This document shows positions 21,397 through 24,923 of a DNA stretch of 28,362 bases, piece by piece. The stretch spans positions 1-28,362 of the IMG/VR virus record IMGVR_UViG_3300031963_000729; one strand, written 5' to 3'. The translations under genes and the position numbers were made by a program. This DNA comes from a virus. Every line of letters begins with the position of its first letter. The stretch's first letter is position 1. Below the pieces are notes generated by a model. The model was not told where the DNA came from. It did no database searches and saw only the letters and a list, made by a program, of their open reading frames with translations.

Positions 21397-21495
21397 AATT
21401 CTAGCGAGTTGCTAGATGTTGTCAAGCCCTTTGCTAGAATTATTTGCATAGGTGTTTTCCCTATTGCCAAAAGACTCTATCAATGTGCTAGAGTC
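21397..21495. promoter_or_regulatory. Operator cluster of GCTAGA half-sites in the divergent control region
   Basis: TCTAGC-GAGTT-GCTAGA (21400-21416) is a perfect inverted repeat over the leftward -10 region. GCTAGAATT at 21433-21441 is the inverse of AATTCTAGC at 21397-21405. A further half-site GTGCTAGAG lies at 21485-21493, just before the Cro-like gene start. The arrangement fits a dimeric helix-turn-helix repressor acting on both directions. No convincing rightward promoter was found, so its place is open. Confidence 0.6.
21398..21425 (-). promoter_or_regulatory. Leftward early promoter
   Basis: On the minus strand, TTGACA (21425-21420) is a perfect -35 box. After 16 bases comes TAGAAT (21403-21398), five of six matches to TATAAT. 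Transcription would start near 21391, giving a leader of about 55 bases before the ATG at 21336. The spacer and -10 box are covered by the TCTAGC/GCTAGA operator. Confidence 0.7.
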
Positions 21496-21496
21496 G

Positions 21497-21721
21497 ATGA
21501 CTATGAACACACAAATACCACCAGACGAGCGCCGACAACTGGCAGAAAAAGTTGGCATCAATGAGCAGTATCTCTACCAATGTCTCACTGGCAGGCGAGA
21601 GATGTCAGCCTGGGAGGCTGTCAGAGTGGAGCAGGCCAGTGAAGGGCGGCTTACTCGGCAGATGGTGTGCCAAGGCAGTTGGCAGTCTATTTGGCCTGAG
21701 TTGGTGGAGATCAAAGCATGA
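21497..21721 (+). CDS. Cro/YdaS-like helix-turn-helix regulator
   Basis: ATG at 21497 (or 21503, two codons later) gives about 74 residues; a GTG at 21452 would run through the control region. The HTH is DERRQLAEKVGINEQYLYQC with a recognition helix YLYQCLTGRR, as in YdaS-like and Cro-like proteins. The first position in the rightward operon and the GCTAGAG half-site directly in front of the gene suggest autoregulation. No CI-type partner is seen in the window. It ends in an ATGA overlap with the primase-helicase. Confidence 0.75.
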   Translation: MTMNTQIPPDERRQLAEKVGINEQYLYQCLTGRREMSAWEAVRVEQASEGRLTRQMVCQGSWQSIWPELVEIKA

Positions 21722-23769
21722 CTAACCTAACAACAATATTCCCTAACGGCTTTGCCGCAGCCACAGAATCGCAAGACCTGATTAACCCTGAAGAGGGGTT
21801 CAGAAAGCATTGCGAGGCATCTGGCTTGCTGATCAAAGAGATCATCGCAGATGGTGAGATTCACAGGGTGGCTCATGTCTCATCCAAGAAGGGTGCATTG
21901 GATGGTTGGTACATCTTGCACTCCAGTGGCAAAGTGCCTGTGGGCATTGCAGGGTGCTGGAAAGAGCCAGTGTTTGAGAGTAAATGGATAGCAGACACTG
22001 GCAAGGCCATGTCGTTCACTGAGCGCTTTGAGCATGACAAGTGGTTGGCAGAGGTCAAAGCCAAGAAGGATGCTGACAGGTTGGCGAGTCAGGCGGTGGC
22101 GGCAGAGAGGGCAGAGGATGAGGTTGGGACGTATGCAGATGCTAGTGATGATCATCCCTACCTTGTGAGGAAGCACGTTGGGGCGCATGGGATCAAGATT
22201 GATCGTGCAGGCAGGTTGGTTGTGCCAGTGATTAACCAAGCAGGGGAAATCCTGAGTTATCAGACCATTGATGCAGATGGCAACAAGCGGTTCTTGAAGG
22301 GTGGCAAGATTGAGGGTGGGTTTTATGAACTCAGGGGCAATCGCAAGATTGTGTTCGTTGGTGAAGGGTTTGCCACTTGCGCTTCGATCCATGAGGCTAC
22401 TGGCTACACAGTTCTTGTGGCGTTTGACTGTGGGAACTTAGCCAAGGTAGCCAAGAGCGCCAAGGAGATGTTCTTGGGGTCTAAGATCATCATTGGTGCA
22501 GATAATGATCAGTTCACAGAGGGCAACCCTGGTGTTACGAAGGGTCGTGCGGCGGCGGCATTGGTGTTTGGGGAGATCGTTTACCCATCATTTGGGGAGT
22601 CTGACATGGTGGACAACAAACCAACAGACTTCAATGACCTGCACTGCCTGCAAGGTCTGGATGCGGTCAAAGAACAGATCGAGCGCGTAGCTGGCCCAAT
22701 GCGTGACAAACTGGCGTTTGAGTTCTCTCGGGCAGACAGTCTGCAACTGAGCCAGATCAACTGGATTGTGGATGACTACATTGAGAGTGATAGCTTGGCG
22801 CAGGTGTTTGGTGACCCAGGCGGTGGTAAATCGTTTGTCTCCATCGACATAGCCTGTTGTGTGGCAACTGGCAAGCCTTGGCATGGGCATGATGTCAAGC
22901 AAGGCAGTGTGTTTTACATCGCAGGCGAAGGACATAACGGGTTAGCGAGAAGGTTTAAGGCATGGCAGTTGGGCAATGGGCAGACTCTTGATGGTGCGCC
23001 TCTGTACAAGAGCCATAGGGCAGCGCAGTTGTACGATGCAACAGAGGCGGCTGTTGTGGCTGAGAGCATCAAGGAGCTGTCAGCGCAAGCAGGGACAACT
23101 CCAAGTTTGATCATCATTGATACTCTAGCCAGAAACCACGGCGGTGATGAGAACTCAACTCAAGACATGAATGCGTTCATTCAGCACTTGGATGTCTATT
23201 TGCGCCAACCTTGGAAATGTTGTGTCTTGGTGGTTCACCACTCCGGCGTGGCTGATAAGGATCGCAGTCGGGGATCAACGGCATTGAAGGGCGCACTGGA
23301 TGCGGAATACAGATGCCAGTTGGACAGTGGAACTAAAACCATAGCCTTTGAATCCAAAAAGATGAAGGATGCAGAGATGCCTGCACCTAAGAACTTTCAG
23401 ATCACTCAGGTTGATTTGCCCATCCAAGACAAGAATGGAGCGCCAGTTCGGGGTGCGTATTTGACGGCAGTAGACATCTCGGGCCTGATGGGTAATATCC
23501 AAAAGCGGGTAGTTCTGTCAGGCAACCAGCGCATTGCCCTGAACTGTTTGGTTGCCATTGAGGTCAAGAGAGCCAGTGATGGGATTGAGGGTTTTGCGGC
23601 AATGGTGGACTATGATGAGTGGCGAGATAGCGCCAAAGGGCATGGTTTGAATGCCAGAAGGTTCAAGGAATGTTTGGAAGCACTGACTAAGAAATCAATG
23701 GTTTTGGAGAACTCTGGGATGTACCGAACTGTACCGAAATGTACCGAAGTCGGTACAGAACGTACATAG
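21718..23769 (+). CDS. Toprim primase - RepA-like helicase fusion
   Basis: The product has 683 residues. An N-terminal domain (GWYILHSSGKVPVGIAG around 63-80) precedes a Toprim domain (VFVGEGFATCASI near 211; IIIGADND near 257). The second half is a RecA/RepA-like hexameric helicase: Walker A GDPGGGKSF (about 365), Walker B LIIIDTLAR (about 463) and VLVVHHSG (about 505). No zinc finger is visible at the N terminus. It should unwind and prime the phage DNA, with a host polymerase, since none is seen here. The last 16 codons (from MYRTVPKC) are encoded by the iteron array, and the gene ends in TAG inside it. Confidence 0.88.
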   Translation: MTNLTTIFPNGFAAATESQDLINPEEGFRKHCEASGLLIKEIIADGEIHRVAHVSSKKGALDGWYILHSSGKVPVGIAGCWKEPVFESKWIADTGKAMSFTERFEHDKWLAEVKAKKDADRLASQAVAAERAEDEVGTYADASDDHPYLVRKHVGAHGIKIDRAGRLVVPVINQAGEILSYQTIDADGNKRFLKGGKIEGGFYELRGNRKIVFVGEGFATCASIHEATGYTVLVAFDCGNLAKVAKSAKEMFLGSKIIIGADNDQFTEGNPGVTKGRAAAALVFGEIVYPSFGESDMVDNKPTDFNDLHCLQGLDAVKEQIERVAGPMRDKLAFEFSRADSLQLSQINWIVDDYIESDSLAQVFGDPGGGKSFVSIDIACCVATGKPWHGHDVKQGSVFYIAGEGHNGLARRFKAWQLGNGQTLDGAPLYKSHRAAQLYDATEAAVVAESIKELSAQAGTTPSLIIIDTLARNHGGDENSTQDMNAFIQHLDVYLRQPWKCCVLVVHHSGVADKDRSRGSTALKGALDAEYRCQLDSGTKTIAFESKKMKDAEMPAPKNFQITQVDLPIQDKNGAPVRGAYLTAVDISGLMGNIQKRVVLSGNQRIALNCLVAIEVKRASDGIEGFAAMVDYDEWRDSAKGHGLNARRFKECLEALTKKSMVLENSGMYRTVPKCTEVGTERT

Positions 23770-23907
23770 GCTTGATGTACCGAAGCGTGTACCGAAATGT
23801 ACCGAAACGTACCGAAATGTACCGAGGCAAACCCCCTCTGGTGTACCGAAACGTACCGAACGTGTCTATAGACACGTTCAGGTTCGGTACAAAAAGGGTT
23901 TCGGTAC
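23721..23907. repeat. Iteron array (GTACCGAA), candidate replication origin
   Basis: Nine perfect direct copies of GTACCGAA start at 23721, 23731, 23741, 23777, 23789, 23799, 23809, 23843 and 23853. One variant (GTACCGAG) is at 23819 and two perfect inverted copies (TTCGGTAC) are at 23883 and 23900. Inside the runs the period is 10 bp, about one helix turn, so bound proteins would line up on one face. The array starts in the end of the primase-helicase gene and fills the 184-base gap before RusA. Placement beside the replicative helicase resembles lambda, where the origin lies within gene O. Confidence 0.8.
23858..23879. other. 22-bp perfect palindrome inside the iteron array
   Basis: The half GAACGTGTCTA (23858-23868) is followed by its exact complement TAGACACGTTC (23869-23879). 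It overlaps the last direct iteron, and an inverted iteron (TTCGGTAC at 23883) follows, so the whole makes a larger imperfect dyad over 23853-23890. It could form a cruciform or bind a dimer. It lacks a T tract and is not a terminator in form. Confidence 0.75.
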
Positions 23908-23953
23908 AGTCCGGCGGATTTTGGGGTGGTTTTGAAGGATTGGAGTGGACTGC

Positions 23954-24301
23954 ATGATTGAGGTCAGAATGAACATGAAAATTGTCAGTGTGGCGAACAT
24001 GAGACTGCATTGGGCGGTTAAGGCCAAGCTGGTCAGGGATCATAGAACGAGGACTCGGATGAGCTTGGCTGCTGCGGCGCAATCTTCTGGTTTGGAGATG
24101 CTTCCGGTTACTGTGGTTTTGACCAGAGTCGCGCCAAGGCGATTGGATGGGGATAATTTGCAGTCTGGGTTTAAGGCGGTCAGGGATGGTGTCGCTGATT
24201 GGCTTGGCGTGGATGATGGTAATGGCTTGATTGATTGGCAGTATGTTCAGAGGTCAGGCAGGCCAGGCGAGTATGCCGTTGAGATTGAGGTGATAAGATG
24301 A
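23954..24301 (+). CDS. RusA-like Holliday junction resolvase
   Basis: ATG at 23954 has GGAG eight bases upstream; the product has 115 residues. The acidic core is RRLDGDNLQSGFKAVRDGVA (D65, D67, N68, K74, D78), then WLGVDDGNG (D87, D88). This matches the RusA plan in which Asp-x-Asp-Asn and a later Asp bind metal, although the spacing from DxDN to the lysine is longer than in E. coli RusA; that variant is common in phages. It would resolve recombination intermediates before packaging. It ends in an ATGA overlap with a tiny gene. Confidence 0.8.
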   Translation: MIEVRMNMKIVSVANMRLHWAVKAKLVRDHRTRTRMSLAAAAQSSGLEMLPVTVVLTRVAPRRLDGDNLQSGFKAVRDGVADWLGVDDGNGLIDWQYVQRSGRPGEYAVEIEVIR

Positions 24302-24393
24302 GTGTGCGCGCAGTTGCCATTGATTGTTGCGCCTTCGGGGAAAGCGCCTTGCGGCGTGAGTACCCATTTTTTTGGGGGTTGTTTTATGGCTAA
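24298..24393 (+). CDS. Possible 31-residue mini-protein coupled to RusA
   Basis: The ATG at 24298 overlaps the RusA stop (ATGA), and the stop overlaps the next gene's start (ATGGCTAA). The product is MSVRAVAIDCCAFGESALRR followed by EYPFFWGLFYG. It is basic at first, then aromatic. No motif is recognised. The evidence is the double overlap, the same arrangement used by other small genes here; a chance reading frame cannot be excluded. Confidence 0.4.
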   Translation: MSVRAVAIDCCAFGESALRREYPFFWGLFYG

Positions 24394-24607
24394 CGCTAAT
24401 GGCAGGCCGCCAAGCATAAATTCTAGATACTTCTATCGTGAGCTAACGATGCCAGACAAAATGATCTTGGCCTGCGCTGGCTCTGGCAATATTACGATTG
24501 GGTTTCGTAATGTCATTGATGCTTACCAAGTTCTTTGGAACGCAGGATATCGCCCTGAGATGGATTTAATCGATTTTCTAGGGCAGTACAAGGGTGAAGG
24601 GCAATAA
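24386..24607 (+). CDS. Small soluble protein, end of rightward early operon (73 aa)
   Basis: The ATG at 24386 (GGGGGTTG upstream) gives MANANGRPPSINSRYFYREL, then KMILACAGSGNITIGFRNVI and DAYQVLWNAGYRPEMDLIDF. An in-frame GTG at 24302 would extend it, but the extension has no good ribosome site. It is a small alpha/beta-looking protein without membrane or metal motif. The segment around residues 33-60 could hold a helix pair; the function is unknown. Confidence 0.6.
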   Translation: MANANGRPPSINSRYFYRELTMPDKMILACAGSGNITIGFRNVIDAYQVLWNAGYRPEMDLIDFLGQYKGEGQ

Positions 24608-24683
24608 TGCCGTATGGATCGTTTTGATGCGTTCTAGGCATGGTTTGCTTGGTATGCGTTGATGCTTTGCGAAGAACTTTTTG

Positions 24684-24787: not shown

Positions 24788-24876
24788 TTATCCACAATGG
24801 TCTTGTTCAACTTGTCCACAGTTTGCGGTGGATAACTTGGCAAGTAAAAACAAAGTATTCAAATATCTGTGCATAA
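24788..24876. other. Cluster of four DnaA-box-like sites with AT-rich segment
   Basis: TTATCCACA at 24788-24796 is a perfect DnaA box. TTGTCCACA (24812-24820) differs at one base. On the other strand TTATCCACC (24835-24827) differs at one base and TTATGCACA (24876-24868) fits TTATNCACA. Between the third and fourth lies an AT-rich stretch (24841-24866) that could melt. Four such sites within 89 bases, two in each orientation, in a region without genes suggest a DnaA-dependent origin or a DnaA-regulated promoter. Confidence 0.65.
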
Positions 24877-24923
24877 CTATGCGTCAACTTAACATAATGG
24901 CCATTGTATAAAGTAGAATCGGG

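Follow-up and report, generated by a model that had tools for sequence, protein, structure and literature searches.

Short iterons at the 3' end of a phage primase-helicase gene form a candidate replication origin, probably read by the enzyme's own winged helix

The window analysed here (the whole stretch of viral DNA, an IMG/VR record of 28,362 bases) encodes a primase-helicase in which Toprim and RecA-fold helicase domains are united in one protein, as indicated by Pfam, PHROG and Foldseek (Table 1). Pfam matches were obtained to AAA_25 (3.7e-38) and Toprim_3 (4.7e-9) and to no other Pfam domain, and the PHROG match was to DNA primase (3.5e-69). The AlphaFold2 model of the protein has a mean pLDDT of 81.9, and its best Foldseek matches in the PDB were T7 gp4 (5ikn, 6n9x) and RSF1010 RepA (1nlf). 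P-loop residues G368, G370 and K371 and the acidic Toprim residues E216, D262 and D264 are invariant in 97 sequences. Approximately the final 80 residues were predicted to form a winged-helix domain, with three helices and a beta wing modelled over residues 602-671 both in the full protein and when the domain was folded alone (pLDDT 87.4, pTM 0.77). Searches of the PDB and Pfam with the sequence of this domain gave no significant match, the weak ones including the winged helices of MCM and Cdc6, and Foldseek returned only generic winged helices, among them that of the MCM C-terminus, with none significant (best E 0.03).

The gene is followed by the iteron array, a RusA-like resolvase gene and, further downstream, the window's own terminase, identified by Pfam. 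The array sits in a rightward operon, with the early operon on one side of it and the terminase genes on the other. The slot upstream of the helicase (21452-21721) holds an XRE/YdaS-like gene in approximately 27 of 67 loci and unrelated reading frames elsewhere. No lambda O-like protein was found with Pfam or PHROG among the neighbouring window proteins scanned, and a DNA-level search of the window against isolate phages gave no match.

Table 1. Features of the primase-helicase locus, in positions of the window
Feature	Position	Strand	Basis or detail
Primase-helicase, 683 aa: Toprim_3, AAA_25 RecA-fold helicase, C-terminal winged helix	21718..23769	+	Pfam, PHROG, Foldseek
Exchange cassette: winged-helix codons and whole array	23461..23940	+	DNA identity of window and L047
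Winged-helix domain, residues 602-671, proposed iteron binder	23521..23730	+	AlphaFold2
Presumed recognition helix, residues 645-658 NARRFKECLEALTK	23650..23691	+	Residues 645, 646, 647 and 650 vary by word class
Direct iterons 1-3	23721, 23731, 23741 (23721..23748)	+	Exact GTACCGAA, within primase-helicase ORF
Inverted near-copy GTACCGAC	23749..23756	-	One-mismatch search
Direct iterons 4-8	23777, 23789, 23799, 23809, 23819 (23777..23826)	+	Copy at 23819 is GTACCGAG
Direct iterons 9-10	23843, 23853 (23843..23860)	+	Exact GTACCGAA
Perfect 22-bp palindrome GAACGTGTCTA/TAGACACGTTC, core CTATAG	23858..23879	.	Separates direct from inverted iterons
Two inverted iterons	23883, 23900 (23883..23907)	-	Exact GTACCGAA
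RusA-like resolvase gene	23945..24301	+	PHROG RusA-like, 1.3e-4
Four DnaA-box-like sites	24788..24876	.	TTATCCACA, TTGTCCACA, inverted TTATCCACC and TTATGCACA

A word count over the record located 11 exact copies of GTACCGAA, all of them at 23721-23907, where chance predicts 0.24 in the whole window and none of 100 shuffles contained 11. With one mismatch permitted, the totals rise to 10 direct copies (nine exact) and three inverted ones (two exact, and GTACCGAC). An earlier sequence-only reading of this DNA had reported 10 direct and two inverted 8-bp copies in this interval, at spacings of 10, 12, 24 and 36 bp; the count and the computed positions agree on both, and add the inverted near-copy and the 22-bp palindrome, which that reading had missed. 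It had also placed the array next to the primase-helicase gene. The two do adjoin, but the first copies lie inside the open reading frame and double as codons of the enzyme's final residues (MYRTVPKCTEVGTERT). The helical phasing that had been proposed holds within blocks and not between them. Taken modulo 10.5 bp, the direct copies fall at 0/.95/.90,.33/.48/.43/.38/.33 and.62/.57 in the three blocks, so that the blocks would lie on different faces of the helix. No second iteron array was found elsewhere in the record. The array is 51% AT, and contains no long AT-rich melting region. As a single strand, positions 23841-23910 are predicted to fold into one long hairpin (-21.9 kcal/mol, z -7.2) that pairs the final two direct iterons with both inverted iterons. 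The palindrome was also considered as an intrinsic terminator and as a known RNA family; no terminator was predicted and no family matched.

Eighty loci were collected from viral contigs in one scan, and a second, run with L075, added more (the best 80 per scan of 216). The close set listed from them comprises 78 distinct relatives, the window included, with enzyme bodies 83-100% identical to that of the window. The sequence-only reading had named absence of the array from close relatives with the same flanks among the observations that would count against it. The array is present in all 78 listed, so the proposal came through its main test. It occupies the same place or lies 0.7-1.4 kb further on where genes have been inserted. 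Eight of the first 80 loci listed (L036, L042, L044, L046, L055, L066, L075 and L084) initially appeared to lack it and proved to carry it behind inserted genes; all eight have a displaced array and are not counter-examples. The inserts in L036, L042, L044, L055 and L066 directly follow the primase-helicase gene, and L046, L084 and L075 are also interrupted. One recurring insert is weakly PAPS-reductase-like (PF01507, E 0.0011, below the Pfam cut-off), another type encodes a 246-aa protein without an assigned family, and the slot between helicase and array appears to be a hot spot of gene gain. No match to the cassette was found in plasmids, and relatives in bacterial genomes amounted to one distant match among 84,980 genomes.

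The word repeated in the array differs among these close relatives. The 78 listed fall into four classes, with GTACCGAA in 47, GAACCGAA in 19, CATCCGA in eight and TCCGGAC in four. When mapped onto a tree of the winged helix (residues 590-665), word class changes three times, as few as four classes allow, and a well-supported branch separates each of GTACCGAA, GAACCGAA and TCCGGAC from the rest. The enzyme body (codons 1-560) gives a DNA tree, which recombination inside the body may distort, on which at least 16 changes are needed; for the GTACCGAA class, well-supported branches force 13. The tree of the RusA-like gene, which follows the array in 72 of the 78 close relatives listed and is unlinked to word class, needs 19 changes, and that of the upstream gene 22, a figure that is indicative only because the tree mixes non-homologous genes. 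The winged-helix domain and the array, judged by these trees, travel as a unit.

The limits of this unit are visible in a comparison of the window with L047. DNA identity is mostly 78-100% before 23461, with one bin at 71%, drops to 53-70% within 23461-23940 and returns to 93-100% from 23941, a profile that marks L047 as a natural double-crossover recombinant. A second dip (50-71%) at 24361-24660, with conserved flanks, covers most of the small gene at 24302-24607.

Within the presumed recognition helix, residues 645-650 read N-[AS]-R-R-F-K in the GTACCGAA class, K-S-N-R-F-R in the GAACCGAA class, [KA]-N-N-R-[FL]-W in the CATCCGA class and A-R-N-R-F-W in the TCCGGAC class. The domains of L074 and L077-L085 are only 63-66% identical to that of the window yet share both its word and its recognition-helix residues, and in the GAACCGAA class (56-61% identical) the word and the helix residues both differ. 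R648 is invariant and CCG is common to all four words, and R648 may therefore read the CCG core. For the putative role of the C-terminal domain in setting origin specificity, this is strong comparative evidence. Over the whole family, the correlation of word and domain independent of the body is weak (partial r 0.09, a value reached in 7 of 300 permutations), because distant lineages have words that no longer resemble one another at all; it is the close clade that provides the strong evidence for coupling.

This coupling bears on which protein would read the array. The sequence-only reading had inferred a dedicated binding protein and had named the Cro-like protein and the primase-helicase as ones to test, and a small HTH gene does lie directly upstream of the primase-helicase. 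That gene is, however, replaced by unrelated ones in many relatives in which the array stays, and the word changes so much more often on the trees of the upstream and RusA-like genes than on that of the helicase C-terminal domain (22 and 19 against 3) that reading by this neighbour, or by any other separate protein, is very improbable. If the reader were a host protein, the locking of word changes to the phage's own domain would be left unexplained.

Arrays at the 3' end of the primase-helicase gene extend well beyond the close clade. In distant cultured phages with homologous enzymes 30-34% identical, the array word is TGAACC in Alteromonas phage XX1924 and PB15, CGGTACA in Idiomarinaceae phage 1N2-2, GGGGACA in CGphi29 and GGCTGGAA in CRP-406. 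The more distant CRP-811/823 carry 11 copies of CTACAAA at the same place, and the array of Rhizobium phage 16-3 p101, also more distant, has 11 copies of CGTGACA. No array was found at this gene end in Mycobacterium phage Nigel or Gordonia phage Morrissey. At least five copies of a 7-mer occur at the primase-helicase 3' end in 149 of 233 loci listed, against 20 of 7,507 control windows. The two strongest control arrays examined proved to be false positives of the method; that of L097 (1280-1560) is a coding Gly-Tyr/Ser repeat tail upstream of the helicase, and that of L155 (1290-1590) a tandem repeat resembling a pentapeptide-repeat gene, also upstream of the helicase. Iteron spacing across the family is mostly 8-13 bp with 10 bp commonest, and the 10-bp period, previously described as unusually short, is typical of the arrays of this primase-helicase family. 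At the helicase end of approximately one third of family loci, whole subgroups included, no array was detected (many of L137, L142-L146, L151-L154, L282-L292 and L300-L321 have none recognisable there). In such subgroups the origin, if of this type, must presumably be sited elsewhere or rely on a word of greater degeneracy.

The palindrome follows the array through the family. In close relatives of the GTACCGAA class the homologous site, picked by homology and not by symmetry, shows eight arm variants, nearly all of which are still complementary. Palindromes without iteron words, their arms 5 or longer, were present in 76 of 105 representatives compared to 230 of 1,050 controls, with a CTNNAG centre in 54 of those 76 compared to 20 of those 230. 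Central palindromes are 12-28 bp long across representatives and are mostly CTWWAG-centred in distant phages. Where a CTNNAG-centred palindrome has words to its left and right and one orientation clearly predominates, the majority iteron orientation flips across it in 44 of 44 representatives and is kept in none; the representatives are kin, and these counts are not of independent events, but 31 different words are represented among them, with a CTNNAG centre for 26. Several loci (L074, L078, L083, L092, L160 and others) have, besides the CTWWAG palindrome, extra palindromes made of two facing iterons.

The position of the array, with the early operon before it and the terminase genes after, would also suit a packaging signal, and an array of this kind could in principle be a recombination hot spot or a neutral tandem repeat. 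Such readings are very unlikely. Across such deep divergence, a neutral repeat would retain neither its exact word nor its position nor the orientation rule, and it would not co-vary with a single protein domain, and in XX1924 and 1N2-2, which are complete tailed phages, the terminase genes lie kilobases from the array or beyond another gene, which argues against packaging. In these two phages the GC skew extreme is approximately 2.3 kb off the array, at a switch of gene orientation; the window shows no clear extreme, and gene orientation switches nearby, so that skew counts neither for nor against an origin at the array.

An operator is a further way to read the array. The winged helix would then repress or terminate its own operon, or switch the downstream genes, and replication would start elsewhere. 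Plasmid iteron arrays also serve autoregulation, the array here lies within a rightward operon, and the coupling of word and domain would be equally expected of an operator. Nevertheless, no terminator or promoter-like site was found in or beside the array, the promoter-like matches being at 23471-23521 and 24461-24516. The array is located at the end of the enzyme gene and not at its promoter, and in the divergent promoter region exact and one-mismatch searches of the window gave no copies nearby. The symmetry of opposed blocks about a palindrome is also a better fit to bidirectional loading, and an operator role is considered quite unlikely.

The remaining candidate for the start of replication lies approximately 0.9 kb downstream of the array, where the cluster of DnaA-box-like sites adjoins an AT-rich stretch (24840-24920, 69% AT). 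At least three DnaA boxes per 150 bp were present in 63 of 67 close relatives listed, at 870-1437 bp downstream of the array, with no such cluster in the rest of the locus. The interval 24788-24920 could on these grounds be the true origin, opened by host DnaA, with the array recruiting or counting the helicase. Against this, the cluster occurs in only one of 102 distant loci although most of these keep the array, and it lies outside the exchange cassette, where it is common to the window and L047. It is unlikely to be the true origin in place of the array. An accessory or rival origin element, or a promoter region under DnaA control, are roles that it could have.

The array, the palindrome, the orientation rule, their conservation, the predicted fold and the joint exchange of domain and array are established in this work. 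The array is a real and, from its comparative pattern, functional-looking feature, with an unusually clear record of apparent natural specificity swaps. It is most likely the phage origin with the phage's own initiator as its reader, and we place at roughly 80% the probability that it is the replication origin with the neighbouring primase-helicase acting as initiator through its C-terminal winged helix. The iteron-type origin of the sequence-only reading thus stands as the best reading, whereas its dedicated small binding protein is not supported, since the word follows the winged helix of the helicase.

In the mechanism proposed, the winged helix would contact the 8-bp iterons in the major groove. 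Ten direct copies to the left of the 22-bp palindrome and two inverted copies to its right face one another, and these blocks would set presumably hexameric helicase rings on either side of it in opposite orientations. The palindrome has a TATA-like core and would melt or extrude; the helicase would load there, and the fused Toprim domain would make the first primers at the opened site. Both strands of the palindrome core contain CTA or CTT. These trinucleotides resemble known primase start sites, and it is speculated that they might serve as primer starts.

Ring helicases of the T7-gp4/RepA kind are generally regarded as dependent on a separate loader or initiator. We lean towards the view that the locus represents an apparently undescribed and widespread class in which an enzyme of this type would read the origin itself and self-load in opposite orientations around a CTWWAG palindrome, with reader-array cassettes swapped among dozens of incompatible specificities. 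No description of such an origin class for Toprim/AAA_25 phage enzymes was found in the searched part of the open literature. Competition among co-infecting phages, or enemies directed against origins, may perhaps drive the swapping. In enzymes otherwise approximately 80-99% identical, the natural series of four words and their matched recognition helices would offer a ready system for studying how origin specificity is coded and switched, and the origins of many uncultivated phages would become predictable from sequence alone. The odd repeated peptide tails of these enzymes would also be explained, as peptides encoded by origin DNA.

Several known systems share elements of this arrangement. 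In lambda the origin lies in or beside the gene of the initiator O, which is neither helicase nor primase, and the iterons, of approximately 18 bp, are inside the gene. The array here is likewise in or beside the proposed initiator gene, but no lambda O-like protein stands among the scanned neighbours. As in iteron plasmids, the repeats are near the gene of the initiator that would bind them; iteron plasmids, however, use iterons of approximately 17-22 bp and a Rep with two winged helices, whereas the words here are 7-8 bp and one winged helix is predicted per enzyme. RSF1010 encodes RepA, RepB and RepC as three separate proteins, with iterons of approximately 20 bp read by RepC. The likeness to it lies in the RepA helicase fold (1nlf) and the iteron origin, and the difference in having one fused enzyme and 7-8-bp words. 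The alpha protein of phage P4 combines primase, helicase and origin recognition, its C-terminal domain reading short type I iterons, and P4 requires two separated sites, ori and crr. The P4 alpha protein with its cognate ori is mentioned in PMC6092414. Unlike alpha, which is SF3/D5-like, the present enzyme has an AAA_25/T7-gp4 fold and a primase of another family, and the record holds a single array.

In SCCmec, the C-terminal domain of Cch2 has been shown experimentally to bind short direct repeats just downstream of its own gene (PMC7581432). The short repeats beside the 3' end of a helicase gene and the C-terminal reader, here a proposed one, are alike, but Cch2 is an unrelated D5/Primase_Cterm helicase with three 5-nt iterons only. 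The nearest working analogue, judged by layout, is the SaPI/PICI Rep-ori system. There, Rep (Pri-Rep) is a helicase initiator with a C-terminal DNA-binding domain, often fused to or beside a primase, and the ori, which lies directly 3' of rep, has a central element between two sets of short iterons (PMC6092414, PMC7581432). Similarly, the putative origin array starts within the last 50 bp of the initiator-helicase ORF, and, in a likeness of form only, opposed iteron sets flank a palindrome with a flip of 44:0. The centre is a CTWWAG palindrome of 12-28 bp rather than the longer AT-rich stretch of SaPI/PICI. SaPI Rep carries DUF927 or D5/Primase_Cterm, in contrast to the AAA_25 and Toprim_3 domains and T7 gp4/RepA fold found here, and SaPI primases are of the AEP type with Rep helicases of other families (PMC7581432). 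SaPI/PICI are satellites, whereas the window has its own terminase, and 1N2-2 and XX1924, among its relatives, are complete tailed phages. With a different helicase family, primase family and element type, the locus is thus an analogue of SaPI/PICI and not a member. The SaPI/PICI origin layout has been held to be unique to PICIs (PMC6092414). The present comparison suggests that it is not, and a SaPI-like layout with an unrelated helicase in many tailed phages would represent either convergence or a more general design.
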